DNA from: a sulfur-oxidizing endosymbiont of Gigantopelta aegis
GTDB lineage: Bacteria; Pseudomonadota; Gammaproteobacteria; GRL18
NCBI RefSeq assembly: GCF_016097415.1
Contig: NZ_JAEHGE010000005.1
Coordinates: 1-35,203, forward strand
Length of the DNA: 35,203 bases
Reading direction: 5' to 3'
The stretch's first letter is position 1; the number at the start of each line of letters is the position of its first letter. Made by a program: the position numbers and the translations under genes. Shown one piece after another: positions 2,199 to 33,573 of this stretch. The notes below the pieces were generated by a model that was not told where the DNA came from, did not search any database, and saw only the letters and a list, made by a program, of their open reading frames with translations.

Positions 2199-2244
2199 TG
2201 AGGAAAATAAAACGCATTATGAATGGTTTTTTTAAGGGTTGCAA

Positions 2245-2535
2245 ATGAACTTGATTACACGATTTTTACGCATAGAACGAAACAGACTGAAACAGGAAGG
2301 TTACAAAGGATTAAATTCTGATGTGATTTTTTTCTTAAACAAAGAGCTAGGAACGAGATACCAACAAGGCCGAGTAAAGGAATGGGAGCGAGGCGAGCGG
2401 CGGCCTAGTGTCGAAACACATAATCATATTTTGAAAAGAGTTTTAACTTATGAATTGAAAAAAAATGGATTAGCTGAGGATGTTATCGGCGATATTATTC
2501 AGAAAACACAGTTACCGGAGGCCATGAAAAAATGA
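2245..2535 (+). CDS. Small putative DNA-binding protein leading the par operon
   Basis: The product is 96 residues. The middle part (SDVIFFLNKELGTRYQQGRVKEWERGERRPSVETHN) reads like an XRE-type helix-turn-helix, with the RVKEWERGERRPS segment typical of the recognition and following helices. No specific family is recognised. ATG 2245 is preferred over a TTG six bases earlier because AAGGG (2234-2238) is at good distance from it. Its stop overlaps the parA start by four bases (ATGA), so it is the first gene of the par operon and probably an autoregulator or copy-control protein. It is also a candidate repressor for the shared operator described elsewhere; both roles are inference. Confidence 0.7.
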   Translation: MNLITRFLRIERNRLKQEGYKGLNSDVIFFLNKELGTRYQQGRVKEWERGERRPSVETHNHILKRVLTYELKKNGLAEDVIGDIIQKTQLPEAMKK

Positions 2536-3290
2536 AAACAATTTGCATATCCAATCAAAAAGGGGGAGTTGGAAAAAGCACAATAGCCGTGCATCTTGCC
2601 CAGCATATTATTGAAAAAAACAATCGGGTGTTATTTGTTGATATAGATCCACAGGCGAATGCGAGTAAAACAATACGTCAGATTTCGGATGTTTTGCCCG
2701 TTGATGCCAGCCAATTATTTACCGATGAACTGGATGACCTAGCGGATGGCTCTGGAGCTATTAGTTTGATTCAGGCTGATGAAAAAATGGCGGATATTGA
2801 ACGCTCTGATCCTAATGTTTTACTGAAGTTTAAAAAGAATTTATCGTCGATCAGTGGTCAGTTTGATTACTGCATAATTGATACGCCACCAACTCTGGGC
2901 ATCCGAATGACTGCGGCTTTGATAGCGAGTCAGTATGTTTTGGCACCTATCGAACTTGAAGAATATAGTATTGATGGCATTACAAAAATGTTACAAACTA
3001 TTTTCGGTGTTCAGAATAAGTGGAATCAGGATTTAAAATTTTTAGGTATGTTGCCAAATCGTTTCAATCCGAGGTCATTGGCACAAAAGGCTACGCTGGA
3101 GAGTTTGCTGAAAAGTTATGCTCATTTGTTAATACCTGCGCCGATAGGCATCCGTTCATCGATCCCGGAGGCACTGAATGAAGGGATACCTGTCTGGAAG
3201 CTCAAAAAAACAGCGGCCAGAGTTGCCGGGCAAGAATTTAAAAAAGCATTTTCGATTATTGATAAAAAATTGGAAGGAGAAAAAGAATGA
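2532..3290 (+). CDS. parA: ParA-family partition ATPase
   Basis: A 252-residue Soj/ParA-type ATPase. The deviant Walker A motif NQKGGVGKST is at residues 8-17, the DIDPQAN segment at 37-43 and the Walker B-like IIDTPP at 115-120. It lacks a long N-terminal helix-turn-helix, so it resembles the short (type Ib/chromosomal-like) ParAs; the small gene just upstream could supply the missing DNA-binding function. It hydrolyses ATP on nucleoid DNA to move ParB-bound plasmid copies to daughter cells. It overlaps both neighbours by four bases, which indicates translational coupling in a three-gene operon. Confidence 0.95.
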   Translation: MKTICISNQKGGVGKSTIAVHLAQHIIEKNNRVLFVDIDPQANASKTIRQISDVLPVDASQLFTDELDDLADGSGAISLIQADEKMADIERSDPNVLLKFKKNLSSISGQFDYCIIDTPPTLGIRMTAALIASQYVLAPIELEEYSIDGITKMLQTIFGVQNKWNQDLKFLGMLPNRFNPRSLAQKATLESLLKSYAHLLIPAPIGIRSSIPEALNEGIPVWKLKKTAARVAGQEFKKAFSIIDKKLEGEKE

Positions 3291-4360
3291 GTAAAGGGGC
3301 TGATTTATCAGGACTGGACGATTTTAATGTTTCATCGTTATTGACCGGCAACAAAAAAGCAAAACGGGCGAATGAGGGGCAATTGAGCTATGCGCCGATT
3401 GATAAGTTCATCGAGGATGAAAATAACGCAAGACAGTCATTTGATTCAGATAAATTGAATGAGTTGGTTGAATCCATCAAAGCTATATCACCAGTGACAA
3501 ACAAGATGACAGGGGTTAAGCAGCCGTTGTCTGTCAGGAGGCATCCAGACAAGGAGGGATATTTTATTATCAATGGTGGCCATCGGCGTTATCGGGCGGC
3601 AAAGATCGCGGGGCTAACGGAATTACCGTATTTCATTTCAGATGAAAATGATGAACTGGATAATGTTGTCGATAATCTGATTCGGGAAGGATTAAAAGCT
3701 GATGAGGTGGCTAAGTTTATTGAAGCGAGAATTTTGGCTGGGGATAAGAAAAGCGAAATCGCAAAACGATTGGGAAAACAATTATCGTATGTTTCAGATC
3801 ATGCGGTGTTTTCGCAATTAGATGACAGTATTAAATCAATTTTTGATGAAAAGTATTGTGAGTCAATTAGAGGGTTGGCAAAGTTACACCGTGCCTTTAA
3901 AAAACACCCTGATAAAGTAAAAAATTACTGTAAAAACCTACATCAAAAAGTGTCCGTTTCTGATATTGATTTTTTTATCAAGTCTCTGGATGAAACTCAA
4001 AAGCAGGACAACAAAAATAATGATTTAGTGGATTCTGATGATAGTAAGTCCGATTCAGTTGAAAATAACAATGAGCGGGAAATAGAACCTCAAGAACCGA
4101 AACATGAACCCCATGAATCAAAAGCGATAAAACAGCAAACCAGAGAGGAACCAGAAAAGGATGTTTCTAAGGATCAGGCCAATTTTAGGAAAGTCAGAAT
4201 AAGAGTGAATGCCCTTGGTAACAAAGGTGATTTATTATTAAGGCCATGTGAAATTGACGATAATGGGGATGTGTTGCTTTGGGTGAAATTGGACGAAGAA
4301 GATGAACCTGTGCAATGTTTTTCACATTCAATTCAGATTGATGAAATTTCAGGATGTTAG
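3287..4360 (+). CDS. parB: ParB-family partition protein with a KorB-like C-terminus
   Basis: A 357-residue ParB/Spo0J/KorB-type protein. The nuclease-fold/CTP-binding domain shows INGGHRRYRAAKIAG at about 95-109, followed by a helix-turn-helix (KKSEIAKRLGKQLSYVSDH, about 144-162). The region that normally reads like IKxxGVxQP carries an insertion (SPVTNKMTGVKQP). A charged, low-complexity linker (about 240-295) leads to a final approximately 55-residue domain that resembles the SH3-like dimerisation domain of KorB from IncP plasmids. It may therefore combine partition with transcriptional control. It overlaps parA by four bases. The binding site is unknown; a palindrome 100 bp downstream is a candidate. 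Confidence 0.92.
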   Translation: MSKGADLSGLDDFNVSSLLTGNKKAKRANEGQLSYAPIDKFIEDENNARQSFDSDKLNELVESIKAISPVTNKMTGVKQPLSVRRHPDKEGYFIINGGHRRYRAAKIAGLTELPYFISDENDELDNVVDNLIREGLKADEVAKFIEARILAGDKKSEIAKRLGKQLSYVSDHAVFSQLDDSIKSIFDEKYCESIRGLAKLHRAFKKHPDKVKNYCKNLHQKVSVSDIDFFIKSLDETQKQDNKNNDLVDSDDSKSDSVENNNEREIEPQEPKHEPHESKAIKQQTREEPEKDVSKDQANFRKVRIRVNALGNKGDLLLRPCEIDDNGDVLLWVKLDEEDEPVQCFSHSIQIDEISGC

Positions 4361-4387: not shown

Positions 4388-4457
4388 ATCATCCTTGCCT
4401 AAATACCTTGGGGTGAATGCGAAGCAGAGGGGCAAAGCCCCTTTGTTCGTTTTTTGT
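4388..4457 (+). terminator. Dispersed plasmid repeat, copy A, carrying a terminator for the par operon
   Basis: The hairpin AGGGGCAAAGCCCCT followed by TTGTTCGTTTTTT terminates the par operon on the plus strand. It is embedded in a longer sequence (ATCATCCTTGCCTAAATACC, then TTGGGGTGAATGCGAAGCAG, then the hairpin) that recurs almost unchanged at 12393-12431 plus 13865-13903 (split by an IS) and at 29903-29959. The terminator role is clear; the reason for the sequence being conserved upstream of the hairpin is not. Confidence 0.8.
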
Positions 4458-4459
4458 GG

Positions 4460-4479
4460 AATTTCGCACGTGCGAAATT
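4460..4479. promoter_or_regulatory. 20-bp perfect palindrome downstream of parB (parS candidate)
   Basis: AATTTCGCACGTGCGAAATT is a perfect palindrome with the CACGTG core also found in chromosomal parS sites. It lies 100 bp past parB. A near-identical 16-bp version, TTTCGCATGTGCGAAA, is at 13909-13924. On the plus strand copy A is followed by a T run, so it could instead be a second terminator stem. A ParB-binding role is inference from position and symmetry. Confidence 0.5.
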
Positions 4480-4484
4480 TTTTT

Positions 4485-4571
4485 TAGTGTTTAGTGCTAG
4501 TGCAGGATTCGCAAAACGTGGACGTTTGCCGGTAAAATGTGTTACATTTTGACTATCAGCACTAAACACTA
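4485..4571. other. oriT: Candidate origin of transfer (oriT)
   Basis: A perfect 14-bp inverted repeat, TAGTGTTTAGTGCT (4485-4498) and AGCACTAAACACTA (4558-4571), brackets 59 bp immediately upstream of the relaxosome operon. Inside are an imperfect dyad (GCAAAACGT/ACGTTTGC, about 4511-4529) and a perfect small hairpin AAAATGT-GTT-ACATTTT (about 4534-4550). The minus strand reads AATCCTGC at 4509-4502, close to the nic consensus YATCCTG|Y of MobP-type relaxases, which would put the nick between 4503 and 4502. The position next to mobC and the relaxase supports the call; the nick site is inferred. Confidence 0.65.
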
Positions 4572-4581
4572 ATCAATAAAT

Positions 4582-5097: not shown

Positions 5098-6086
5098 TGG
5101 CAGACTATGAGAGTTCACTACATGGTTTTTTGGAGGAGCCGGTTAAGTATCGCGGAAAAGTTAAAATTGATCCGGGGAGACGAGTAACATCACGGGGAAA
5201 AAGAGTTATTCGGCGGAGTCCAGAGGTCATGGTGAAGATAACAGGGAATACCAAGGGCGTTAGTCATACCGGATCACATTTAGACTATATCAGTCGAAAT
5301 GGTGATTTAAAACTGGAGAATGAGCGCGGAGAAGTCATCGAAGGCAAGGAGGCAATGAAAGAATTAAAAGAGGAATGGGCGGTTGGTCAGGGTAGAGGGC
5401 GAAAAAATAAGCGATTGACCACAAATATTATTTTATCCATGCCGAAAGGAACCAATACAAAAGGATTGGTGAAGGCGGCTAGGGGGTTTGCCAGCAAAAC
5501 ATTTGGTGATAATTATCAATATGTATTTGTTCTGCATGAAGATTCAGAAGGTGAAAATCCTCATGTGCATTTGACTGTTCGTAATCTAGGTTTTGATGGT
5601 AAGAGATTACATATTAAAAAAGGTGATCCGCAAATATGGCGAGAGACGTTTGCGACTGAACTACGGTGGTATGGGATTGATGCTGAGGCGACACCAAGAG
5701 CGGTGCGTGGTGTCGTAAAAAAAGGTGTTAGCCAGGTTATAAAACATATCAGGAAAAGTGGCAGAACGGCTCAGGTGGATAAAGATAAGGTTGATGAAAT
5801 CATCAAGGAGTTTGCAAAAAAGGAACAGAAGGAAAAGCCTTGGGAAGAAAAAATCATAAATCGACAAAATGTTATCAGAAAATTATGGTTGGGAACCGCA
5901 CAGAAGTTGCTAAAAAGTAAAAGCCAGGAAGATCAAGAATTAGGTAATGAGATTGTTGATTATGTGAATACGATGCCGCCATTGAAAACAGAGCGGCATG
6001 AAATGATGGAAAAAATGTTGGATATGACTATTAAACAGGAAAAGGAAATGCAGGCAAAGGGGAACGAGAATGGGCAAGAGCGATAA
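5097..6086 (+). CDS. MobP-family relaxase (VirD2/TraI-like nuclease domain)
   Basis: A 329-residue relaxase. Motif I is HTGSHLDYISRNG (about residues 56-68) with the candidate nucleophile tyrosine in DYIS. Motif III is HEDSEGENPHVHLTVRN (about 147-163) with the histidine triad that binds the metal. It should nick oriT and remain linked to the 5' end that VirD4 delivers to the channel. It is shorter than RP4 TraI: the LPD7-type domain often fused to such relaxases is here a separate gene at 16171-17430. The C-terminus ends in GQER; three other putative substrates of the system also end in ER. It overlaps traX by 17 bases. Confidence 0.92.
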   Translation: MADYESSLHGFLEEPVKYRGKVKIDPGRRVTSRGKRVIRRSPEVMVKITGNTKGVSHTGSHLDYISRNGDLKLENERGEVIEGKEAMKELKEEWAVGQGRGRKNKRLTTNIILSMPKGTNTKGLVKAARGFASKTFGDNYQYVFVLHEDSEGENPHVHLTVRNLGFDGKRLHIKKGDPQIWRETFATELRWYGIDAEATPRAVRGVVKKGVSQVIKHIRKSGRTAQVDKDKVDEIIKEFAKKEQKEKPWEEKIINRQNVIRKLWLGTAQKLLKSKSQEDQELGNEIVDYVNTMPPLKTERHEMMEKMLDMTIKQEKEMQAKGNENGQER

Positions 6087-6789
6087 GTTTATATTGTCAG
6101 ATGGCAGTGTTGAATTGTTGAAATGGGTGGCAGTTTGCTTGATGGTGGTAGATCATGTGAATAAATATCTGTTCGGCGAAGCCTATCCTGTTATGTTCAG
6201 TTTTGGGCGACTGGTATTACCCATCTTTGTCGTCGTGCTGGCTTATAATCTTTCAAGGGATGATGGATTGAGGAAAGGGGTTTATTTACGGGCAATGAAG
6301 CGTATGGTTATTTTTGGCTTGTTAGCGACACCGGCATTTGTCGGTTTGGGCGGTGATTTGGCATTGGTTAAAGACGGCCAGGAACTATGGTGGATACTGA
6401 ATATTTTATTTACTTTGGCACTTCTAACATGGTGCTTATATTGTTTCGATAGAGGTCAAACAGATAATTATTGGAATTGGGTTGGGTGGGGTTCTTTTTT
6501 ATTTGGAGGGGCTTTTGTGGAATTTTGGTGGGGAGCGTTAGGGTTAGGGATTGCAGTATGGTTATATTATAAAAATCTGGATAGTGGTGTAACTTGGTCG
6601 TTACTAGGTTTTTCTTTGTTTTTTTTATTGGTTGTGAACATTGGAAATTGGTGGTTTTTAATGGCGTTTCCACTGATCTATTTAGCATCAAAGATTCCTG
6701 TTCAAATTACTAGAATGAAATGGTTTTTTTATGGATTTTATCCAGTACATTTATCTATTATTTGGTGGATAAAGCACTATATGTTGTGA
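6070..6789 (+). CDS. traX: TraX-family membrane acetyltransferase
   Basis: A 239-residue membrane protein with about seven to eight hydrophobic segments. The N-terminal stretch LLKWVAVCLMVVDHVNKYLF followed by GRLVLPIFVVVLAYNLSRD is the TraX signature. In F, TraX N-acetylates the pilin subunit; related proteins are found on many conjugative plasmids. Here the likely substrate is the VirB2-like pilin encoded at 28433-28738. The start ATG lies inside the relaxase 3' end behind GGGGAACGAG, so the gene is the last of the mobC-relaxase-traX operon. Tryptophan-rich composition is typical of the family. Confidence 0.85.
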   Translation: MGKSDKFILSDGSVELLKWVAVCLMVVDHVNKYLFGEAYPVMFSFGRLVLPIFVVVLAYNLSRDDGLRKGVYLRAMKRMVIFGLLATPAFVGLGGDLALVKDGQELWWILNILFTLALLTWCLYCFDRGQTDNYWNWVGWGSFLFGGAFVEFWWGALGLGIAVWLYYKNLDSGVTWSLLGFSLFFLLVVNIGNWWFLMAFPLIYLASKIPVQITRMKWFFYGFYPVHLSIIWWIKHYML

Positions 6790-7429: not shown

Positions 7430-8763
7430 ACACGACTTACGCCCAGCTCTCTGCATTGTCGAATCATTCCCAAAATCGGTTCAGGTAGACTCTGCAACGA
7501 GGAAAACAGGCGTTCAATCCTGATTTAATGTCCTCAGCAATCGTTTTATACAAACGCCAGGGTGTCAATGCACGCGGCCCATCCATTTTCGTCAAGGCCT
7601 TGGTAAAACACCGCTGCGCGATCTTTTCCGTAACCACCGCATACAGAAGTTTGCCCTGTAAATACAATTCGGCCAATTGACTGTCTTTACGGGCACGTAA
7701 TTGATTGATCGCCAACAGGCTTTTCAGCCGTTTGATCACCAATTCCACCTGCCAGCGTACACGATAGAGCGCGGCAGCCGTTTCGGTGCTGAGCAACTCG
7801 ACCGGCACGGACGTTAAAATTAAGACCCATTCACTGAGATAGAGCGTTTTTTCCTGGGCTGTACGTCCTTTGTTCTGCGCTCTGAGTTTCGCTTTACGCC
7901 GGGCTTGCGCCGCTTTTTCGGCAGGTAACGGAACCGCATGTACCGTGCAGGCGATTCGTTTAGTATCATGGCACAAATAAACCGGAATAGCCCCCGCTTG
8001 TTTCCCGAGACGTTGTAATTTCGTTTCCCAGTCAATTTTTATCATTTTGCCGTGCTCGTCAAGCTCGTATAAATTCATGCTGTGTGCGTTATAGCGCAGC
8101 ACAATATCGCCACCTCGGTCAATAAAAGGCACCAACGACTTCGGTTGATTGTAGCCACGATCAATCAACACGACATCGCCCGATTCCAGCACATAATGGT
8201 CAAGGCTTCGCCAATCTTGTCCGTACTGACTTCAACCTGGCGCAATGTCAGTGAAATCAAATCTATCGCGATATGTAGCCGATACGTGGTTTCTGTCGCA
8301 CCGGGTTCCTGCACGGTCGAGCCATCAATAATAACGAAGCTTAATGAACCACTGTCAACCACCTGATGCAACCCAAATACGCCCGATAGCAAGGATTTTA
8401 CCCAAGGAACGCAGGCCGCCAGTCTTTTTTACCGCCGTATCACTTAAGTGAGCCCTGTAAGTGAGCCACCTCGCCGGCGCAACTCCGCAAGGAGAAATCC
8501 AGACCACAGTAGAGCATCACCAACTGTAACAGTTGTAAGGGCGAACGGATCTTGCGCGCACGCGTGAAGGCTTTAAATTCATAGGCTTGTTGTTGATAAT
8601 CTTCTGGAAGTTCTTGCACAAATTGTTCAAAACGAGTATCTATGTGAGGTGGCTGCTTTTTCATAGGGTTTTCACTTTTGTCGGCAAAAGACTCTATGTG
8701 GTGGCCACACCTTTATTTTTCAACACGTAATCAATGATTTAATGGCTTAAGTTGGCGCTTATG
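7393..8763 (-). mobile_element. IS4-family-like insertion sequence, copy 1 (internally deleted)
   Basis: The element is bounded by perfect 20-bp terminal inverted repeats CATAAGCGCCAACTTAAGCC (7393-7412 and, inverted, 8744-8763). It is flanked by a perfect 11-bp target duplication ACAGGTGAGGT (7382-7392, 8764-8774), as expected for the IS4 family. It is 1371 bp long. Compared with copy 2 (12432-13864) it lacks 61 bp near the left end and one T in the run at about 8206; I saw no other difference. The deletions frameshift the transposase, so this copy is probably not autonomous. Confidence 0.95.
7464..8664 (-). pseudogene. Broken IS4-like transposase of copy 1
   Basis: Three frame-shifted pieces: an N-terminal 74-residue piece (8440-8664), a middle piece with the first catalytic aspartate in IDGST (8165-8392), and a C-terminal piece (7464-8192) holding LIDRGYN and the Y-R-E-K signature YRVRWQVELVIKRLK. 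The single-base loss near 8206 and the 61-bp deletion after about 7540 are private to this copy. The break between the first two pieces is shared with copy 2. Confidence 0.9.
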
Positions 8764-8782: not shown

Positions 8783-9235
8783 ATGAGTGAATACTTAAAT
8801 AAACACCGGCCAATTAAGCAGAAAAGGATTGTTCGGGGGGTTTGTGTTAATCCGGTTTTGCGTGATGATTTCGATTATACACCTAACGATGCTAGACCTA
8901 ATCAGGAAGTACAAGATTGGTGGGGAAGGGCATTTGTAATAGAAAGTGAATATTATGCGCCAGATGCGTCTTATGAGGATTATATGGAGCGGATGGCATC
9001 GTATGATATGGATTACAGTGTGGAATCTAAAGAAGAATGGGCGGAAAGAACAGATAAATCTAGGCGATTGTTTGAAGAAAAATTCCCAACTGGAAAGAGG
9101 TACGATGTTAGAGTTTTGGATGGTGGCGCATGGGACAGAAGTACATGGAAAGCAACGGTAGCAACATTGGATGAGGCAGTAAATATAGCAATAGGGGTTT
9201 CTTCACATGGAGCTATAGGAGAGATGGCGAAATGA
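8783..9235 (+). CDS. Unknown soluble protein
   Basis: A 150-residue acidic protein, rich in tyrosine, tryptophan and aspartate (NQEVQDWWGRAFVIES; YYAPDASYEDYMERMASYDM). No family recognised. ATG 8783 is chosen over an earlier in-frame GTG (8768) because the GTG lies in the IS target duplication; in the pre-insertion sequence ATG 8783 overlaps the stop of the preceding gene. It overlaps the next gene by four bases (ATGA), so genes from 6897 to 10514 formed one operon before the IS arrived. The IS now separates it from the promoter at 6829. Confidence 0.7.
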   Translation: MSEYLNKHRPIKQKRIVRGVCVNPVLRDDFDYTPNDARPNQEVQDWWGRAFVIESEYYAPDASYEDYMERMASYDMDYSVESKEEWAERTDKSRRLFEEKFPTGKRYDVRVLDGGAWDRSTWKATVATLDEAVNIAIGVSSHGAIGEMAK

Positions 9236-9729
9236 GGATAAAGAACTTAATTAAATGTACAGTTCCAAAGACGAATAAAGAACATTACTTAACAAGTATT
9301 ACAGCATTAAATATTCCTTCCGATGAAGGAACTGGCGATTGGCATTTTTATGATGCTTTTTATGAGACTGCTGATTTTGTTCCTAAAAAGTATGTTGCCG
9401 GTATTGATACATTATCGACAAATGAAATTCTAGGTGATAATGGTGTTTATGATGCTTATTCGGTTTTAGTTGAAACGGGGTTGCAACCAATAACTGACAA
9501 TGTTTATGCCGCAGATCATTACAGGGCTGTAGCTGATATGGTGTTTGATTTAGTGAGAAAGGTTTCTACCCAAAGAGAATTAAATATGTTGATTATTCTT
9601 GATGACTGGCTGACTGAACCGGAGGAAAAAGAAAGGCTGTTTTCTCTCACAGATCAATTTAGGGGCGTTTTAACGAAAAAAGAATATCAAAGGTTAGAGT
9701 CGTGGAAAACAAGCAACTGGAAGGGCTGA
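9232..9729 (+). CDS. Unknown protein, possible partner (antitoxin) of the AbiEii-like gene
   Basis: A 165-residue acidic protein with no recognised domain. It overlaps the downstream nucleotidyltransferase gene by 28 bases and the upstream gene by four. AbiEii-type toxins are normally encoded directly after an antitoxin gene, and the tight overlap makes this product the positional candidate. However, it does not show the winged-helix features expected of AbiEi. The antitoxin role is therefore a guess from position only. Confidence 0.6.
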   Translation: MRIKNLIKCTVPKTNKEHYLTSITALNIPSDEGTGDWHFYDAFYETADFVPKKYVAGIDTLSTNEILGDNGVYDAYSVLVETGLQPITDNVYAADHYRAVADMVFDLVRKVSTQRELNMLIILDDWLTEPEEKERLFSLTDQFRGVLTKKEYQRLESWKTSNWKG

Positions 9730-10514
9730 CGGACGATCAAAAAGAGCATGTCAGCTTTATGATGGAAATCACCAAATCAGTAGCCGATACACCAATGGTT
9801 TTAAAAGGTGGTACTGCATTATTATTGGCTTATGGTTTAGATAGGTTCTCAGAAGATTTGGATTTTGATAGCACTCAGGCTATCAATCTTGAAAAAAGGA
9901 TTTATGATGCCGGGAAGCGATCAAAAGTCAGGATAGGTAAGATTTTTGTAAAAAAAAATACTGGGACAACAAGGCGGTATATTGTTAATTATGAAGGAAG
10001 GCATCGCCCACGAAGTTTAAAAATAGAAACATCATTCCGAAAGTCAGCTATTGAAAATGAATCAACAGAAATTTTGAATGGGATCAAAGTTTATAAGTTA
10101 AATACTTTAATTTCACAAAAGCTGGATGCAGGATTGAACAGATCAAAAGTAAGAGATTTGTATGATATTGCTTTTTTAAGCAGAAACTATCAACATTTAT
10201 TCACTTCCGAAAATATAGAGAAATTAGCTGAATTTGGTAGCGACCCTGATTCCTTGGTAAGTCGGTATCAACAAGATCATGTCTTAGATTCCATTTTAAA
10301 AGATAGATCATTAGATGAAATGGCATTGCAGGTAAGTTTAAATTTGGATAACTTGAGAGAGAGACAAACGAACAATATTACCCGATTGGCGGAAAAATTC
10401 AGTCAGGACAAATTTAACAATACCGAAGATCAGCAACGCTTTGTTAGCAGTGTGAATACACAAGTTGAAAGCATCAAGGAAGAAGCAACACAAGATCAGA
10501 ATTTTGAAAGATAA
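9702..10514 (+). CDS. AbiEii/MosT-like nucleotidyltransferase with an extra C-terminal tail
   Basis: A 270-residue protein starting at GTG 9702. Residues 35-56 (KGGTALLLAYGLDRFSEDLDFD) contain the GGT and S-x-DLDFD motifs of the AbiEii/AbiGii toxin nucleotidyltransferases. The QKLDAGLNRSKVRDLYDIAFL segment (139-159) matches their second conserved block. Such enzymes act as toxins in abortive infection or plasmid-maintenance modules. Residues about 227-270 are not part of that fold: AEKFSQDKFNNTEDQQRFVS is identical to the tail of the LPD7-like protein at 16171-17430, and the DNA is identical over 67 bp (10387-10453). The gene ends in FER and is followed by a terminator. Confidence 0.82.
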   Translation: MENKQLEGLTDDQKEHVSFMMEITKSVADTPMVLKGGTALLLAYGLDRFSEDLDFDSTQAINLEKRIYDAGKRSKVRIGKIFVKKNTGTTRRYIVNYEGRHRPRSLKIETSFRKSAIENESTEILNGIKVYKLNTLISQKLDAGLNRSKVRDLYDIAFLSRNYQHLFTSENIEKLAEFGSDPDSLVSRYQQDHVLDSILKDRSLDEMALQVSLNLDNLRERQTNNITRLAEKFSQDKFNNTEDQQRFVSSVNTQVESIKEEATQDQNFER

Positions 10515-11074: not shown

Positions 11075-11926
11075 GGGGCTGTTGCCGTTTTGAAAATCCC
11101 CCTTGAAATTCAATAACTCCGCCACATAGATTGTTTATTTTGACTCAAAAACAAGCAAACTATGCCCCGACAAATGCTTACGGATGAACTTTGGGAGAAA
11201 CTGAAGATAATTATGTTGAAAATGGGAATTTATGACAAACCTTGTCTTCGAAAAACAGTCGAAGGTATTTTTTATCGCTTGCGAGTAGGTTGTCCCTGGA
11301 GAGATTTACCCACGGCTTTTGGTAATTGGAATGCGGTATATAAACGATTCAATGACTGGTCTCGTAAAGAAAAACTGATGGGTATTTTTAACGCCTTGGT
11401 TGTTGATCCAGACCTGGAATGGGAATTTATTGATGGGAGTATTGTGAAAGCACATCAGCATAGTAGTGGTGCGGCCTGTGAACAAGAAACAGCGATAGGG
11501 AAATCTGTCGCCGGGAACACCAGTAAAATTCATATGGCCGTTGATGCCTGTGGTCTTCCTATTCATTTCTCAGTGACAGGCGGCGAAGTTCATGACTGTA
11601 AAGAAGCACCGAAATTAGTTGCAGAGCTCCCAAAAGGTGACTATATAGTTGCTGACAGAGGCTATGACAGTGAAGCATTACGTCTTCAAATTAAAGACAA
11701 AGGGGCTGTTCCTGTTATCCCAAGAAAAAAGAATTCAACTCGGGGAAATGATGAAATGGATTGGTGTCTCTACAAATATCGCCATCTCGTTGAAAATGTG
11801 TTTGCAAGACTTAAGCATTTCAGAGCGATCGCCACGCGATATGACAAACTCAAACGAAATTTTGAAGGCTCTATCGCTCTGGCTTGCGCCTTTTTATGGT
11901 TACCTATGTGAAATGGCAACAGCCCC
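11075..11926 (+). mobile_element. IS5-family-like insertion sequence (IS427-like group)
   Basis: Terminal inverted repeats GGGGCTGTTGCC (11075-11086) and GGCAACAGCCCC (11915-11926) are perfect over 12 bp. The flanking direct repeat is TA (11073-11074, 11927-11928), as in the TA-targeting members of the IS5 family. The length is 852 bp. The element appears complete and encodes one uninterrupted transposase in the same orientation as the gene it splits. Confidence 0.92.
11162..11911 (+). CDS. IS5-family-like DDE transposase
   Basis: A 249-residue enzyme. The N-terminal block LTDELWEKLKIIM...YRLRVGCPWRDLPTAFGNW is the DUF4096-type domain found in this group. The catalytic triad is read as D in FIDGSIVKAHQH (about residue 90), D in VADRGYDS (about 163) and E in HLVENVFARLKHFRAIATRYDK (about 211). 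Many IS427-group members make this protein by frameshifting between two frames; here a single frame covers the whole length, so the element may be active. Confidence 0.93.
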   Translation: MPRQMLTDELWEKLKIIMLKMGIYDKPCLRKTVEGIFYRLRVGCPWRDLPTAFGNWNAVYKRFNDWSRKEKLMGIFNALVVDPDLEWEFIDGSIVKAHQHSSGAACEQETAIGKSVAGNTSKIHMAVDACGLPIHFSVTGGEVHDCKEAPKLVAELPKGDYIVADRGYDSEALRLQIKDKGAVPVIPRKKNSTRGNDEMDWCLYKYRHLVENVFARLKHFRAIATRYDKLKRNFEGSIALACAFLWLPM

Positions 11927-12392: not shown

Positions 12393-12431
12393 ATCATCCT
12401 TGTTTAAATACCTTGGGGTGAGCGAAGCAGA
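12393..12431 (+). repeat. Dispersed plasmid repeat, copy B, left part (split by IS4-like copy 2)
   Basis: ATCATCCTTGTTTAAATACC followed by TTGGGGTGAGCGAAGCAGA matches copies A (4388) and C (29903), except for a two-base gap. The IS4-like element entered inside it, duplicating AGCGAAGCAGA. The other part (AGGGGCAAAGCCCCTTTG hairpin and T-rich run) resumes at 13865-13903. Before the insertion it formed a terminator for the gene ending at 12389. Confidence 0.85.
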
Positions 12432-12464: not shown

Positions 12465-13493
12465 TTAAACACGACTTACGCCCAGCTCTCTGCATTGTCG
12501 AATCATTCCCAAAATCGGTTCAGGTAGACTCTGCAACGAACGTTTTCTCGGGCGTTCGCTAACGCTTTTCAAATAATCACGCTGAAAGCGTTCTTGCTTC
12601 GGAAAACAGGCGTTCAATCCTGATTTAATGTCCTCAGCAATCGTTTTATACAAACGCCAGGGTGTCAATGCACGCGGCCCATCCATTTTCGTCAAGGCCT
12701 TGGTAAAACACCGCTGCGCGATCTTTTCCGTAACCACCGCATACAGAAGTTTGCCCTGTAAATACAATTCGGCCAATTGACTGTCTTTACGGGCACGTAA
12801 TTGATTGATCGCCAACAGGCTTTTCAGCCGTTTGATCACCAATTCCACCTGCCAGCGTACACGATAGAGCGCGGCAGCCGTTTCGGTGCTGAGCAACTCG
12901 ACCGGCACGGACGTTAAAATTAAGACCCATTCACTGAGATAGAGCGTTTTTTCCTGGGCTGTACGTCCTTTGTTCTGCGCTCTGAGTTTCGCTTTACGCC
13001 GGGCTTGCGCCGCTTTTTCGGCAGGTAACGGAACCGCATGTACCGTGCAGGCGATTCGTTTAGTATCATGGCACAAATAAACCGGAATAGCCCCCGCTTG
13101 TTTCCCGAGACGTTGTAATTTCGTTTCCCAGTCAATTTTTATCATTTTGCCGTGCTCGTCAAGCTCGTATAAATTCATGCTGTGTGCGTTATAGCGCAGC
13201 ACAATATCGCCACCTCGGTCAATAAAAGGCACCAACGACTTCGGTTGATTGTAGCCACGATCAATCAACACGACATCGCCCGATTCCAGCACATAATGGT
13301 CAAGGCTTTCGCCAATCTTGTCCGTACTGACTTCAACCTGGCGCAATGTCAGTGAAATCAAATCTATCGCGATATGTAGCCGATACGTGGTTTCTGTCGC
13401 ACCGGGTTCCTGCACGGTCGAGCCATCAATAATAACGAAGCTTAATGAACCACTGTCAACCACCTGATGCAACCCAAATACGCCCGATAGCAA
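12465..13493 (-). CDS. IS4-like transposase, main catalytic part (copy 2)
   Basis: A 342-residue reading frame with the full catalytic core: IDGST (first Asp, about residue 22), VLIDRGYN (second Asp, about 77) and the YRVRWQVELVIKRLK signature (Glu, about 191). It has no strong start of its own (a TTG at 13493). The true N-terminus is encoded in another frame at 13541-13765. Comparison with the expected protein flow (GSL-SDTAVKK-RLAACVPW) suggests two single-A insertions, one at CTTAAGT (about 13546) and one in the A6 run (about 13529). Confidence 0.85.
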   Translation of the reverse strand: MLSGVFGLHQVVDSGSLSFVIIDGSTVQEPGATETTYRLHIAIDLISLTLRQVEVSTDKIGESLDHYVLESGDVVLIDRGYNQPKSLVPFIDRGGDIVLRYNAHSMNLYELDEHGKMIKIDWETKLQRLGKQAGAIPVYLCHDTKRIACTVHAVPLPAEKAAQARRKAKLRAQNKGRTAQEKTLYLSEWVLILTSVPVELLSTETAAALYRVRWQVELVIKRLKSLLAINQLRARKDSQLAELYLQGKLLYAVVTEKIAQRCFTKALTKMDGPRALTPWRLYKTIAEDIKSGLNACFPKQERFQRDYLKSVSERPRKRSLQSLPEPILGMIRQCRELGVSRV

Positions 13494-13765: not shown

Positions 13766-13908
13766 AGGGTTTTCACTTTTGTCGGCAAAAGACTCTATGT
13801 GGTGGCCACACCTTTATTTTTCAACACGTAATCAATGATTTAATGGCTTAAGTTGGCGCTTATGAGCGAAGCAGAGGGGCAAAGCCCCTTTGTTTGTTTT
13901 TAGTTAAA

Positions 13909-13924
13909 TTTCGCATGTGCGAAA
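13909..13924. promoter_or_regulatory. Second copy of the parS-candidate palindrome
   Basis: TTTCGCATGTGCGAAA differs only in the centre from the palindrome at 4460-4479. In both places it follows the dispersed repeat's terminator by a short distance. Here it lies just past the stop codon of the ArdC-like gene and could also act as a hairpin for that minus-strand transcript. Confidence 0.45.
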
Positions 13925-13926
13925 GC

Positions 13927-15894
13927 TTATCTTTCCATATCCGGCTGGGTAGGTTCTTTAATTTTGACATTTAAAGTAGGCTGTTCTATTTTATTTTCAA
14001 GTTGTTTTTGTACTTGTTCAATAAACCTATTTTTATCATCTTCGGTCTTAAAATTTTCGGTAAATTTTTTAGCCAATTTTATTGGTACGGCTTTTTGAGT
14101 TTGATGTAGCCCATTGTTAAATTCTTTATATTCTGGTGATCCAATAGGGTAGGGATTGTCGAATTGATTACTAGGTAAGATTGCTTCTTTTATACCTTGT
14201 TTAAAGGCTTCTGAGAGCTGAGGGTTTTCTTCTTTTTTTTCACTATAAATTCTATCGGCTATAGAGTCTGTAATTTCCCTTTTTGCGTTATTAAATCCAG
14301 CGCTAAACTCTTTAAATTCTGGTGAGCTTGGATGATAAGGGTTGTCGTAGTCAGTTGCAGATATTGCTTTTTCTACGCCAGATTTGAATGCTTCTGATAC
14401 TTCTGAACTTTTAATTTGTTCTGATGTTATAGATTGAGATTTTTCTTTTTCATAGCTCAACACCAAATTTGTTATCTTCTCGGCATCTTTACTTGCTATT
14501 AAAATTTCTTTTGGATCATCCTTGAGAACTTTTATCCAGCTTTTAACGTAAGCGGCATGTTGGCCCGGATCATGGCCAACCCCTAATTCTGTTCCAGTCA
14601 TTAAACTGCTTATTTCGGCCCGTAGTTCTTCTTTGGCATAGCTTTCGGAACCGAATCTGCCTGATAAATCCCGATCCAGTCTGGAAGGATGGCCGGTTGA
14701 GTGACCCAATTCATGCAAGGCAGTTGCATAATATTTACCGGCATCATCAAACTGTTCTTTCTTTGGTAAATGAATTTCGTCTTTACTTGGTATGTAATAA
14801 GCACTGTCTGATTGGTCGTGGTGAAGTGGAACGCCGGAATTGTTCAGGATTTTCTCCACTCTTTCGACTTCTTCCCAAGACATTTCTTTGCTTTTGTTTT
14901 CCAGTTCCGGCAAACCATCGACTTGCTCTGCATTGAAAACGGTTGCTGAAAATACCCTCGGTGTGTCTAGTTTGATTTTTATTTTTACTTTGTTGCCATC
15001 GGCATCAAGGACGGGTTTACCATTTTCATCACGTTTCAGTTTTTCTTCTTCAAATTTATAGTATTCAATCCGAGTGCCTTTTTCACCTTTTCTGACCTGT
15101 GCATTAACTGACTGTGCCTGCTTATATGTCAGCCAACGGGGATCGCTTCGCCCTTGCATAGAAAGGTGAAGGGCGTTAATGCCCTTATATCGATTGCCTG
15201 TCACTGCATTATGAGGGATAGCATCGAAACTTGCTTCCCAAGGTTTTTGCCAAGGGGCTGTTCCTTGTTCGAGTTGCTCAATCAATTTATTGGCAACCGT
15301 TTCATAGTAAGGTTCTTTTTTCCCGGTTTTCTGGAACTGGGCTTGGTCTGATTCAGGAAAAGTTTGTTGGGTAATTTGCCCGGTTTTCAATCCTTCTGAA
15401 ACATATTTTGAGATAGCTTTCAGATTATCCATGCTGAGATTATCCGCACGGATAGACTCATTGAACCGGACAGGGACATCATATTCAGTTTCCGAGATGG
15501 TGGCGAAAACTTCTTCAGCTAATCGGTTGTCATCGTGGTTCGGGTACAGCTTTTTTAACTGGTCTCTTTGTTCCTGAATTTCCTTATCCGGGGAATGCGT
15601 AATTGCATCAAGCAGTTTAGCTTTGTCATCAGGCGAAAAAGTGTTGATCCCGGCATGGCCAATCAATTCATGCCTGAGTGTTTTTTCAAGACCTTCCAAG
15701 GAATTGATGGCTTCATTATTAACAGCAACTATCCGGCTTTTTGGAAAAAAAGCACCTTGAAAATCGCCTAATGATTTGCCTTTTTCGCCAAACAGTTCTT
15801 CAGGGCTTCCGACTCGGATTTCAATATCATCGAGTCCTTTGTGATTATCAAGGAATGAATTACCAATATTTTCAATGAATGCTTTTTCTGTCAT
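13927..15894 (-). CDS. Double-zincin protein with ArdC-like antirestriction domain
   Basis: A 655-residue multidomain protein. Residues about 1-150 contain a first metallopeptidase motif, HELIGH (75-80). Residues about 192-325 match the ArdC N-terminal ssDNA-binding domain (YYETVANKLIEQLEQGTAPWQKPW; NRYKGINALHL). Residues about 340-480 hold a second zincin with HELGHSTGH (394-402) and the helper segment YAKEELRAEISS. Two degenerate repeats follow (EAFKSGVEKAI...DNPYHPSSPEFKEF and EAFKQGIKEAI...DNPYPIGSPEYKEF). The last 55 residues are a diverged version of the tail shared with two other plasmid proteins, ending DMER. ArdC proteins protect entering DNA and can be sent to the recipient. It is the last gene of the transfer operon. 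Confidence 0.85.
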   Translation of the reverse strand: MTEKAFIENIGNSFLDNHKGLDDIEIRVGSPEELFGEKGKSLGDFQGAFFPKSRIVAVNNEAINSLEGLEKTLRHELIGHAGINTFSPDDKAKLLDAITHSPDKEIQEQRDQLKKLYPNHDDNRLAEEVFATISETEYDVPVRFNESIRADNLSMDNLKAISKYVSEGLKTGQITQQTFPESDQAQFQKTGKKEPYYETVANKLIEQLEQGTAPWQKPWEASFDAIPHNAVTGNRYKGINALHLSMQGRSDPRWLTYKQAQSVNAQVRKGEKGTRIEYYKFEEEKLKRDENGKPVLDADGNKVKIKIKLDTPRVFSATVFNAEQVDGLPELENKSKEMSWEEVERVEKILNNSGVPLHHDQSDSAYYIPSKDEIHLPKKEQFDDAGKYYATALHELGHSTGHPSRLDRDLSGRFGSESYAKEELRAEISSLMTGTELGVGHDPGQHAAYVKSWIKVLKDDPKEILIASKDAEKITNLVLSYEKEKSQSITSEQIKSSEVSEAFKSGVEKAISATDYDNPYHPSSPEFKEFSAGFNNAKREITDSIADRIYSEKKEENPQLSEAFKQGIKEAILPSNQFDNPYPIGSPEYKEFNNGLHQTQKAVPIKLAKKFTENFKTEDDKNRFIEQVQKQLENKIEQPTLNVKIKEPTQPDMER

Positions 15895-29902: not shown

Positions 29903-29959
29903 ATCATCCTTGCTTAAATACCTTGGGGTGAATGCGAAGCAGAGGGGCAAAGCCCCTTT
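29903..29959. repeat. Dispersed plasmid repeat, copy C
   Basis: ATCATCCTTGCTTAAATACC, TTGGGGTGAATGCGAAGCAG and AGGGGCAAAGCCCCTTTG repeat copy A (4388) with only one or two changes. Its plus-strand hairpin has a T-rich run after it (CTCTATTTTTC). Here no plus-strand gene precedes it; it lies past the stop of the minus-strand gene at 29963. It lacks the palindrome that follows copies A and B. Confidence 0.8.
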
Positions 29960-29962
29960 GCT

Positions 29963-30133
29963 CTATTTTTCTTTTAATTTGCTTCTTTGATATTTATCTT
30001 TTTGTTTGCATTTATTTGAACAGAATTTTGCCCTTTTCAGGCCCAAAAATTCTTCTCTACAAACAACACATTTTTTTAGCTCTTTTTTTCTCATCGAGGC
30101 TAAAGTTGCCCCGGCTGTTATTTTTTCTGTCAT
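29963..30133 (-). CDS. Small zinc-finger protein
   Basis: A 56-residue basic protein (start at 30133; an alternative ATG at 30157 adds eight residues). The motif CVVCREEFLG...AKFCSNKCKQK gives a CxxC...CxxxC zinc-binding site like those of small MYM-type or YHS-like nucleic-acid-binding fingers. ATG 30133 overlaps the stop of a 17-residue leader frame (ATGA), suggesting coupling. It is transcribed from promoter copy 2 (30220-30248). Confidence 0.65.
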   Translation of the reverse strand: MTEKITAGATLASMRKKELKKCVVCREEFLGLKRAKFCSNKCKQKDKYQRSKLKEK

Positions 30134-30944: not shown

Positions 30945-31346
30945 GGCAGGCAGGCTGGGAGGTCAGTCAACATGAAACACTATGAGGTATTCTGTTTAAG
31001 CAATCAGGAGTTTGTTTTCGGCAAGTTTTTTTGCGATTCTGTTATGAATGAAATAAATGTCAGCATTTTTTTCATTCCACGATGCAATTTCATTCAAAGC
31101 GTCAATAACACTTTCTCTGCAATCAAAAAAACATGGATCAGTTCGTATCCAAGCGAAAACTTGATTAGTTTCGTTATCAACTGCCACCAAAATATGATCC
31201 TTCTTAACCGGTGTTAATGGCCATCTAAACTGACCCACTAGCGGACAACAAAAATGACCCCTTTTTTAACCTAAGGGGCAATTGTCCCGTATGCTTTCAT
31301 CTTTTCTTGAGCTTTAGAAAAGGAGAAGGCTTTGAAGGAGTGGTGT

Positions 31347-32846
31347 ATGATTCATAAAATAAAATCGTTATATGATGATGGCAACGGCTTGGGTAAAAAG
31401 GCCATAGCTCGGCAACTGGGTATTTCAGTCAACACGGTGCGCAAGTATCTGGCGATGGATGAAGTGGCGATGAGTGCTTATCTGTCCAATCGGCCACGGC
31501 ACAAACAGCTGGATGATTACCGGGACTACATTATCCATCTGCTGAAAACCTTTCCCCAGCTGAGTGCCGTCAAGGTACAACGTAAATTGAAAGAAAAGTA
31601 TCCAGAACTGGAGGTTTCGTCCCGTTCAATCCGTCGTTATGTCAATACGCTCCGGGAAACGGTTGCCTGCAAATCAAAACGGTATTATCAGCCCGTGCTG
31701 GACATGGTGCCGGGGGAGCAGTGTCAGGTGGACCCTGGGGAGCTTCGGGGCGTGTTGATTAATGGCGTGGAAACCACGGTTTACTTTGTGGTGTTTGTGT
31801 TGTCCTTTTCCCGGTTGATGCATGTCAGTGTGTCGGACAAACCGATTGATACGGAGCGCTTTATCCAGATGCATGATGCGGCGTTTCGTTATTTCGGCGG
31901 TGTAACAGCCGAATGTGTCTATGATCAGACCAAGTTAGTGGTGATTGAAGAGCTGTACCGGGAATTGACGGTGAATGCGCGCTTTAATGAATATGCCACG
32001 CACGCGGGGTTCAGAATACACGCTTGTGAAGGCTATGACCCGGAAAGCAAAGGTAAGGTCGAGGCGGGCGTGAAATATGTCAAAAACAATGCCCTGTACG
32101 GCGAGGTATTTGCAGACTGGGCAGAGCTTGAATCCTATCTGGCCGACTGGCTGGACAACACAGCCAATCAGCGGGTGCATGCGACGACCGGCAACGTGCC
32201 ACAAGTGTATTATGATCAGCACGAACGTGCACAGATGAAACCCTATCTGTCTCCGGCAATGGTGCAGGCCGATGAGGCATTGATGACCCGCAAGGTGGAC
32301 AAGACCGGGCTGATTTCCTATCAGTCCAACAAATACTCCGTCCCCATGGCCTATCAGCAAGCCACCGTGGGCATCCGTGTTGAGGGGGAATACCTGATTA
32401 TCATGGACCTGGAAAAGGACAAAGAAATCGCCCGGCATCCTTTGACCACAGGCCACGGCAACATCAGCAAAAACAACCATCATTACCGCGACCCAGCGCA
32501 GCGGATTGAACAGTTAGAGCAAGCACTGCGGGCGCTTGTCGGGCAAGCTCAGGCCGATACCTTGGCCGCGCTTCTCAAGCAAAGCGAACCCAAAATCTAT
32601 AAAGACCAACTGGCCGGCGTCATTCAGGAAATCAAAAAACATCAACCGGTGACAGCGGCACTGCTGGACAAACTCTGCCAAAGACCCAGGCTCAGCGCCA
32701 CCCAGGTTCGAGACTTCCTGGACGCCTATCAGGCGCATCCGGAACGCCTGACCCCGGCCGATGCGGTGCCAGTTCATGCCCCAGAAGGTCAACTGGATGC
32801 CTACCGTGCCCTGATCACCCAGGAGGTCAGCCATGTGTCTCATTGA
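31347..32846 (+). CDS. istA: IS21 transposase IstA
   Basis: A 499-residue DDE transposase. The N-terminal helix-turn-helix reads GLGKKAIARQLGISVNTVRKYL (about 14-35). The catalytic aspartates are in QCQVDPGE and ECVYDQTK and the glutamate in PESKGKVEAGVKYVKNN. The start is placed at ATG 31347 behind AAGGAG (31335-31340). It overlaps istB by 14 bases. Confidence 0.95.
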   Translation: MIHKIKSLYDDGNGLGKKAIARQLGISVNTVRKYLAMDEVAMSAYLSNRPRHKQLDDYRDYIIHLLKTFPQLSAVKVQRKLKEKYPELEVSSRSIRRYVNTLRETVACKSKRYYQPVLDMVPGEQCQVDPGELRGVLINGVETTVYFVVFVLSFSRLMHVSVSDKPIDTERFIQMHDAAFRYFGGVTAECVYDQTKLVVIEELYRELTVNARFNEYATHAGFRIHACEGYDPESKGKVEAGVKYVKNNALYGEVFADWAELESYLADWLDNTANQRVHATTGNVPQVYYDQHERAQMKPYLSPAMVQADEALMTRKVDKTGLISYQSNKYSVPMAYQQATVGIRVEGEYLIIMDLEKDKEIARHPLTTGHGNISKNNHHYRDPAQRIEQLEQALRALVGQAQADTLAALLKQSEPKIYKDQLAGVIQEIKKHQPVTAALLDKLCQRPRLSATQVRDFLDAYQAHPERLTPADAVPVHAPEGQLDAYRALITQEVSHVSH

Positions 32847-33573
32847 ACAGGTTAACCGGCAGTGTCAGCATTTAAAGCTCAGTAGCCTGACCACCGCCTT
32901 GCCGGAACTGCTGCAACAGGCCGAAACCAATGAACTGTCCTATCTCCAGTATACCGACCTACTGTTAGGGCATGAAGTCAAAACCCGCAATGACAAGCGC
33001 CTGAGTGCCAATCGAAGAAAGGCCGGCTTCCCGATCGAAAAACACCTGGAAAGCTTTGATTACCGGCATCAGACCACCATCACCAAACGCCAGGTCAATC
33101 AACTGCTGGACTTTGACTTTATCGACAATCGCCACAACCTGATCTTTATCGGGCCGCCGGGTGTCGGTAAAACCCACCTGTCTATCGGTATTAGCCTCAA
33201 AGCCATTGATGCCGGCTACAAGGTCTTGTTTGTCAATGCCTTATCACTGGTCGAAACCCTGGAAGTGGCCGAACTTAAAGGCGAGCTGAAAAAGAAAATC
33301 AGCAGCCTTTGTAAATTTGATCTGCTCATTATTGATGAACTGGGCTACCTGCCCATGAACAAACAGGGTAACTACAACCTGTTCCAGCTGATCAATGCCC
33401 TCTACGAATACCGCTCAATCATCCTGACCACCAATAAGGATTTCACTGCCTGGGGTGAGTTCTTCGTGGATGAAAATGTGGCTGTACCCATTATTGACCG
33501 GCTGATTCATCATTCAAAAATATTCATGTTAGGAGGGGAAAGCTATCGTTTAAAACAGAAAACCAACACATAA
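32833..33573 (+). CDS. istB: IS21 helper ATPase IstB
   Basis: A 246-residue AAA+ protein with Walker A FIGPPGVGKTHLSIG (about 108-122) and Walker B LLIIDELGYLPMN. It selects the target and activates IstA. The frame is complete, so the element is potentially active. Confidence 0.95.
   Translation: MCLIEQVNRQCQHLKLSSLTTALPELLQQAETNELSYLQYTDLLLGHEVKTRNDKRLSANRRKAGFPIEKHLESFDYRHQTTITKRQVNQLLDFDFIDNRHNLIFIGPPGVGKTHLSIGISLKAIDAGYKVLFVNALSLVETLEVAELKGELKKKISSLCKFDLLIIDELGYLPMNKQGNYNLFQLINALYEYRSIILTTNKDFTAWGEFFVDENVAVPIIDRLIHHSKIFMLGGESYRLKQKTNT

Follow-up and report, generated by a model that had tools for sequence, protein, structure and literature searches.

RA3 is the archetype of the IncU plasmids. 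Its oriT region has been dissected experimentally: RA3 could mobilise a 417-bp fragment of it, mobilisation fell to less than 1 per 1e7, an undetectable level, when two bases of the nick site were substituted, mutation of the IR3a arm beside the nick reduced it 100-fold, and upstream deletions reduced it 5 to 20-fold, the left arm of the long repeat IR2 being lost in some of these constructs along with other elements (PMC4175270). The RA3 MobC protein is an autorepressor whose binding site is a palindrome located between the two hexamers of the promoter, and the palindrome IR-SnaBI is a KorB site; repression by MobC requires neither arm of IR2 (PMC4175270). The IR2 arms are 75 nt apart, three of five PromA plasmids conserve both their sequence and their position, and the authors assign them no role (PMC4175270). 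A 45-nt oriT (in the coordinates of the paper) gives self-transfer at the frequency of RA3 (PMC4175270); from its sequence, this stretch holds one IR2 arm only.

Here we compare with these systems a contig of 35,203 bases, called the window throughout. We conclude that positions 4460 to 4580 very probably constitute the oriT of a conjugative plasmid that belongs to the RA3 (IncU)/PromA transfer family, with a likely partition site adjoining on the left and the candidate mobC promoter on the right. This identification is drawn from relatives, namely from the conserved core, the kinship of the proteins with those of RA3 and the RA3 experiments.

Sequences and Searches

The window is the whole of contig G000:C5, in a genome (G000) of 4.9 Mb and 11 contigs; no terminal repeat was found at the ends of the contig. 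A tblastn search of plasmids with the window relaxase gave 2770 records, of which 288 had at least 80% query coverage. Locus counts were taken on the best 80 of 403 relaxase-related genome loci. For the analysis of the long repeat, L068 and L094 were excluded because their upstream DNA was too short, of two GCAGGAT matches in L021 one was kept, by place, and 78 loci were reduced by an 80% identity rule to 37 non-redundant ones, 19 non-alphaproteobacterial and 18 alphaproteobacterial. Each was scored by the best stem that the 40 bases to the left of the core could form with bases +35 to +100. An earlier matrix of 13 loci had been hand-picked, and the test was redone with all 37.

Results

Organization of the transfer and partition genes

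The proteins encoded around the site were identified by Pfam above the gathering scores (Table 1), which bore out the mobC, relaxase, parB, parA and antirestriction genes named in a previous sequence-only reading of this DNA. The 98-aa "small regulator" of that reading gave no Pfam match, and this protein, which occupies the place of korA, has no detectable similarity to RA3 KorA or KorC. The relaxase scored 58.4 bits against PF03432 (threshold 24.6), which indicates a nuclease domain of the MOBP type, and 108.1 bits against the NCBIfam MobP1 model (NF041450), below the cut-off of 200. Residues H147, D149, PHVH 155-158 and Y64, the last of which we take to be the catalytic tyrosine, are invariant in six aligned relatives; in the window protein the spacing from D149 to PHVH is longer by two residues.

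Pfam also recognised VirB-type secretion genes on the other strand and a TraX family gene (6070-6789), whose start overlaps the relaxase gene; at this place the annotations of RA3 and of the Serratia plasmid described below show no such gene. Further along, an AbiEii-type nucleotidyltransferase gene (9232-10514) and an overlapping upstream gene with no Pfam match form a possible type IV toxin-antitoxin pair. Insertion sequences are found at 7464-8192, 11162-11911, 12465-13493 and 31332-33573; they comprise a DDE transposase (PF01609) that is present twice, its first copy being shortened, an IS5-family transposase and an IstA/IstB (IS21-type) pair.

Table 1. Features of the putative oriT region and of the neighbouring genes (a slash before C marks the inferred nick; percentages are identities)
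Feature	Position	Strand	Basis and remarks
Antirestriction protein, PF03230	1681-2151	+	Pfam; 38% to RA3 antirestriction protein (143 aa); predicted leading region
98-aa protein, korA position	2239-2535	+	53% to counterpart in L015
ParA/IncC	2532-3290	+	Pfam; 66% to RA3 IncC (247 aa)
ParB/KorB	3287-4360	+	Pfam; 51% to RA3 KorB (220 aa); first gene of predicted leading region
Intrinsic-terminator-like hairpin after parB	4423-4457	+	Stem 4423-4447; part of a recurring repeat
Candidate parS/OB (ParB/KorB site)	4460-4479		20-bp perfect palindrome AATTTCGCACGTGCGAAATT; at the place of RA3 TTTCGTACGTACGAAA (IR-SnaBI)
Left arm of 15-bp repeat (IR2-like)	4484-4498		Predicted leading end of T-strand; place of RA3 IR2a
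Nic core, GCTAGTGCAGGATTCGCAAA on plus strand	4496-4515	-	T-strand TTTGCGAATCCTG/C; inferred nick 4503/4502, relaxase on C4502
Nick-proximal hairpin, GCAAAACGT/ACGTTTGC	4511-4529	-	Centroid fold; one bulged base; 8 nt from inferred nick; position of RA3 IR3
Candidate mobC promoter	4519-4548	+	TGGACG (4519-4524), 18 nt, TACATT (4543-4548); from position only; weak consensus
Palindrome AAAATGT-GTT-ACATTTT, candidate MobC operator	4534-4550	+	Between and over the promoter hexamers; by analogy with RA3 OM
Right arm of 15-bp repeat	4558-4572		Predicted trailing end of T-strand and predicted mobC leader; place of RA3 IR2b
MobC (NikA-like/MobC), 171 aa	4582-5097	+	Pfam; 40% to RA3 MobC (170 aa)
MobA/VirD2-like (MOBP-type) relaxase, 329 aa	5097-6086	+	Pfam; 55% to RA3 Nic (314 aa)

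The nic core is conserved in strand and place

The sequence-only reading had singled out a MobP-like nic match on the minus strand at 4509-4502. The octamer AATCCTGC is present there and differs by one base from YATCCTGY. However, the window contains 88 one-mismatch matches to this consensus compared with 73.2 in shuffled sequences (sd 8.0; 88 was reached in 4 of 100 shuffles). Since this is hardly above chance, a single match says little, and the consensus was dropped as sole evidence for an oriT. The motif acquires its meaning from its position and from its conservation in relatives.

Among the best 80 of 403 loci, GCAGGAT occurred on the same strand, within 1500 bases upstream of the relaxase gene, in 72, and the opposite-strand word in 7. 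The form found in the window, GCAGGATTCG, was shared by 10 of the 72; 61 had GCAGGATAGG, which is the classic TATCCTGC, and one had GCAGGATAGCT. The word was not found within 1500 bases upstream in the other eight (L015, L026, L032, L048, L065, L070, L078, L088). L078 and L088 are short of upstream DNA, L026 carries a variant with one base changed (GCTGGATTCG), and in L015, the best of the 80 by its relaxase, the site itself is cut short. A longer core, GCAGGATTCGCAA on the mobC coding strand and thus TTGCGAATCCTG/C on the other, is identical in L008, L009, L010 and RA3, which also have in common the arrangement with a neighbouring palindrome. The motif called one base off the MobP consensus is an exact match to the core of its subfamily, more than the sequence-only reading had credited it with, and its proposal of a candidate oriT gains support from the 72 loci and from the RA3 counterpart. 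Core, place, orientation and neighbours are conserved: the core lies on the strand opposite mobC, directly upstream of the mobC-relaxase pair, as in oriTs of the RA3 (IncU)/PromA type. Mimics of the oriT elsewhere in the 4.9-Mb host genome were looked for and not found: with up to three mismatches allowed, the core matched once. A shorter core, with at most one mismatch allowed, matched three of 144 related genomes, namely G000 and two further genomes in which one base differed.

On the two sides of the core lie candidate regulatory elements. A likely parS, which had escaped the sequence-only reading, is a perfect palindrome at the place of the RA3 KorB site. A 14-mer of it has a one-mismatch copy at 13910-13923, but two or more matches were obtained in 33 of 100 shuffles, hence this copy is not above chance. 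The TACATT of the candidate mobC promoter has the same offset from GCAGGAT (+41) as TATAAT in L009; a promoter scan did not include this promoter among those that it listed. These elements raise the alternative that the region serves regulation and partition only, as a parS and a mobC promoter with operators, the long repeat being an operator pair and the oriT lying elsewhere on the plasmid. The operator-like palindrome at the KorB-site position and the palindrome over the promoter fit such a function, and the RA3 counterparts of both are regulatory (PMC4175270). This explanation is nevertheless highly improbable, as it conflicts with the conserved strand and rough place of the nic core in 72 of the best 80 of 403 loci, with the mobilisation of the RA3 fragment and its abolition by changes at the nick site, and with repression by RA3 MobC, for which neither IR2 arm is needed (PMC4175270).

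The terminator-like hairpin and the palindrome belong to a repeat that recurs in the window (4388-4477, 12393-12431 plus 13866-13924, 29903-29970). The parts at 12393-12431 and 13866-13924, to which ten bases of the query are common, resemble a single copy that was interrupted by an insertion holding the DDE transposase gene (12465-13493, PF01609). Shorter stretches related to this repeat are found in two other contigs of this genome, C1 and C4, and in L015 behind parB.

A long inverted repeat keeps its pairing while its sequence changes

The perfect inverted repeat reported before mobC is real, but it measures 15 bp and not 14: TTAGTGTTTAGTGCT and AGCACTAAACACTAA, spaced by 59 nt, lie on either side of the inferred nick and around the promoter and the operator. 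The 35,203 bases of the window contain no other perfect inverted repeat that reaches 13 bp and has its arms within 100 nt of each other; among 200 dinucleotide shuffles, three had a repeat of at least 14 bp and none had one of 15 bp. In pairing and place it resembles the long repeat around promoter and nick in oriTs of the RA3/PromA type, but not in their GC-rich primary sequence. The internal hairpins, GCAAAACGT/ACGTTTGC and AAAATGT/ACATTTT, are likewise confirmed. Folded as DNA, the minus strand from 4480 to 4576 reached -20.3 kcal/mol compared with a shuffle mean of -8.07 (z -6.15), and none of 200 shuffles was as good. When the first 5.2 kb of the minus strand were scanned in 145 segments, those around the terminator (2155-2192) and around the hairpin 1366-1505 ranked ahead of the putative oriT.

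Pairing of the arms was then evaluated across the 37 loci. The two arms of a locus gave a mean score of 8.59, and arms exchanged between loci 5.81; the own pair was the maximum of its row in 17 of 37, and none of 100,000 permutations did as well, figures that are not independent probabilities because the loci share kinship. The 19 non-alphaproteobacterial loci gave 10.42 versus 6.52 (row maximum in 14; 0 of 100,000 permutations) and the 18 alphaproteobacterial loci 6.67 versus 5.66 (row maximum in 4; 50 of 100,000). At the level of single loci, the best stem was reached by at most 1 of 300 shuffles in 10 of 37 loci and by at most 15 of 300 in 15 of 37. The outer letters of the arms covary in close relatives (ATATGGGGGG/CCCCCCATAT, GAAATGGGGGG/CCCCCCATTTC, ATTTGGGGGGT/ACCCCCCAAAT). 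Pairing of the long repeat is thus kept through sequence change. We conclude from these sequences that it is pairing or symmetry, rather than the G-tract, that is maintained. The long repeat as a family-wide feature was rejected: little of it is present in the 18 alphaproteobacterial loci, and in the retained loci of the Halomonas group (L019, L022) the stem is no better than chance, being reached by 71 and 86 of 300 shuffles.

What the repeat does can be read in more than one way. It may act in the T-strand, where the leading and trailing arms would pair, hold the ends and aid their re-joining, or else its extrusion as a cruciform would expose the nick. The position of the arms either side of the nick, their better pairing with each other than with swapped arms, the T-strand fold and the fact that the window arms are unlike the G-tract arms of RA3 yet perfect are all consistent with this action, as is the 5 to 20-fold loss of mobilisation upon upstream deletion in RA3, although other elements were removed as well (PMC4175270). 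On the other hand, the 45-nt RA3 oriT with one arm transfers as often as RA3 (PMC4175270), the repeat is weak or absent in many relatives, 15 of 37 loci having a best stem that no more than 15 of 300 shuffles equal and 17 of 37 an own-pair maximum, and covariation would be expected of paired protein sites too. We therefore regard an action in the T-strand as tentative and somewhat unlikely. Slightly more doubtful is the proposal that the arms are a pair of sites for a dimeric protein, other than MobC, that would loop the promoter and the nick. In the window as in RA3 the arms flank promoter, operator and nick, and symmetric sites can covary; but the arms differ wholly from those of RA3 while the nic core is identical, RA3 MobC represses independently of both arms (PMC4175270), and a candidate protein was not found. 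A bolder version of pairing in the T-strand, and an unlikely one, is that the repeat is selected for pairing of the T-strand ends, which closes the linear transferred strand into a panhandle and so brings its 3′ end to the relaxase that sits on the 5′ end. It would then be a termination aid of RA3/PromA-type origins, and the present plasmid a natural compensatory mutant.

Predicted nicking and direction of transfer

MOBP-type relaxases remain attached to the 5′ C of the cut strand, and it is this rule that sets the strand and the direction proposed here. From RA3 and from MOBP biochemistry we infer the following course for the oriT. The relaxase, aided by MobC, would recognise the nick-proximal hairpin on the minus strand, cut after GAATCCTG, before the C at 4502, and remain on this 5′ C. 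The minus strand would then exit 5′ first towards lower coordinates. The likely parS, parB, parA, the 98-aa gene and the antirestriction gene would enter first and, provided that the contig is circular, traX, the relaxase gene and mobC last.

The antirestriction gene is on the plus strand and the inferred T-strand is the minus strand; given this nick strand, the incoming DNA would be the template of the leading genes. For anti-defence genes of leading regions in general, the arriving strand is the template (PMC11541004). The same report describes no enrichment of such genes in the leading region for MOBT, MOBP2 and MOBC, so that the general result may not carry over (PMC11541004). An annotated antirestriction gene lies on the leading side, in the direction of mobC, in three of four other whole plasmids (RA3, the Serratia plasmid and pSFA231), at 6 to 7 kb from the nick compared with 2.4 kb in the window. 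The names annotated in the Serratia plasmid and pSFA231 are ArdR and ArdC; in the Vibrio plasmid no annotated antirestriction gene was found. The window encodes a second antirestriction-type protein, ArdC-like (13927-15894, minus strand), which would enter late.

The predicted leading region also includes a likely vegetative origin (1257-1500), with three 13-mers TTATGTA(C/T)TCTTA, a DnaA-box match TGTGGATAA at 1313-1321 and an iteron-like motif whose two direct and two inverted copies form a long hairpin. This hairpin (about 1372-1500; z -5.78 and -5.72 on the two strands) is read as part of oriV because it lies among the iteron-like repeats, near the DnaA-box match and the 13-mers; it may also be a single-strand promoter. 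A candidate Frpo-like single-strand promoter upstream of the antirestriction gene was rejected, the 12-bp repeat 1552-1563/1628-1639 being A/T-rich and its fold weak (z -1.65). Pfam named no replication initiator among 30 proteins scanned, and tblastn with the rep genes of the Serratia, Vibrio and pSFA231 plasmids gave nothing in the window at E <= 0.1.

Discussion

The analysis backs a nick site that had been read by eye from the raw sequence. The kinship with RA3 and the fact that the long repeat spans the nick had not been part of that reading, and the compensatory change of the repeat is the point that goes beyond its oriT call. The site adds a diverged plasmid to the RA3/PromA transfer family and bears on IR2 of RA3, in that the pairing is kept and not the G-tract.

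Relatives of the core occur in other settings. In L015, from the thiotrophic symbiont of Bathymodiolus heckerae, the terminator-like repeat, a palindrome, a G-tract and CTAGTGCAGGA are retained at 3430-3620. The sequence then passes directly into mobC at about residue 27, and the oriT thus apparently lacks its right half and mobC its start. Two small plasmids of E. coli and Salmonella, L095 (NZ_CP072805, 1943 bp) and L096 (NZ_CP090544, 3042 bp; 2485-2650), have no annotated relaxase and are typed as non-mobilizable. Both have a nic core of the RA3 type together with the palindrome TTTCGTACGTACGAAA of RA3, and a second nic lies 53 bases further along. Part of this second nic recurs unchanged in larger conjugative plasmids, some with an annotated DNA distortion polypeptide. 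The two small plasmids are apparent hitchhikers on two transfer systems; at least 80% of the 166-base query was found in 36 of 2529 matching records.

In annotated plasmid records, the order parA-parB and then mobC-relaxase is annotated in RA3, pSFA231, the Serratia plasmid (NZ_MT039143) and the Vibrio plasmid (NZ_CP082305), the last two having additional genes between parB and oriT. Both of these, and the Piscirickettsia/Edwardsiella plasmids (NZ_CP013819, CP001136), in which no par genes adjoin the oriT, have GCAGGATTCGCAA and on its left a TTCG..CGAA palindrome like the window, but unlike it their arms are G-tracts. In pSFA231 (KJ850907), presumably a PromA plasmid, the oriT also lies between the korB operon and a mobC-like gene, and a long repeat that includes a C/G tract likewise encloses the nick, whereas its core is GCAGGATAGGCT (TATCCTGC) and its relaxase is 39% identical. 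More remotely, the taxA-taxC region of IncX4 (NZ_CP023373) is similar in that TATCCTGC lies upstream of its auxiliary gene, but its relaxase is distant (29.8% over 48% of the query) and its repeats are different.

The closest comparison is with RA3 (NC_010919.1), to which the window is alike in its transfer and partition modules; the rep gene of RA3, CDS 1-1380, was without a tblastn match in the window at E <= 0.1. RA3 differs by an SprT-like gene between korB and oriT, which the window lacks, by its parS palindrome (TTCGTACGTACGAA, compared with TTCGCACGTGCGAA in the window) and by the arms of its repeat, AAACATGGGGGGG with a G-tract instead of TTAGTGTTTAGTGCT, around a loop of 75 instead of 59. 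Shared by the two are the order partition operon, parS, oriT, mobC and relaxase, the core GCAGGATTCGCAA, a nick-proximal hairpin arm at equal offset, a long repeat round the nick and an antirestriction gene on the leading side. The putative oriT of the window thus lies between the partition operon and mobC, beside a candidate KorB site. The same gene order and core, the palindrome at the place of the KorB site and the position of the mobC promoter support the view that it is the counterpart of the experimentally supported RA3 oriT.
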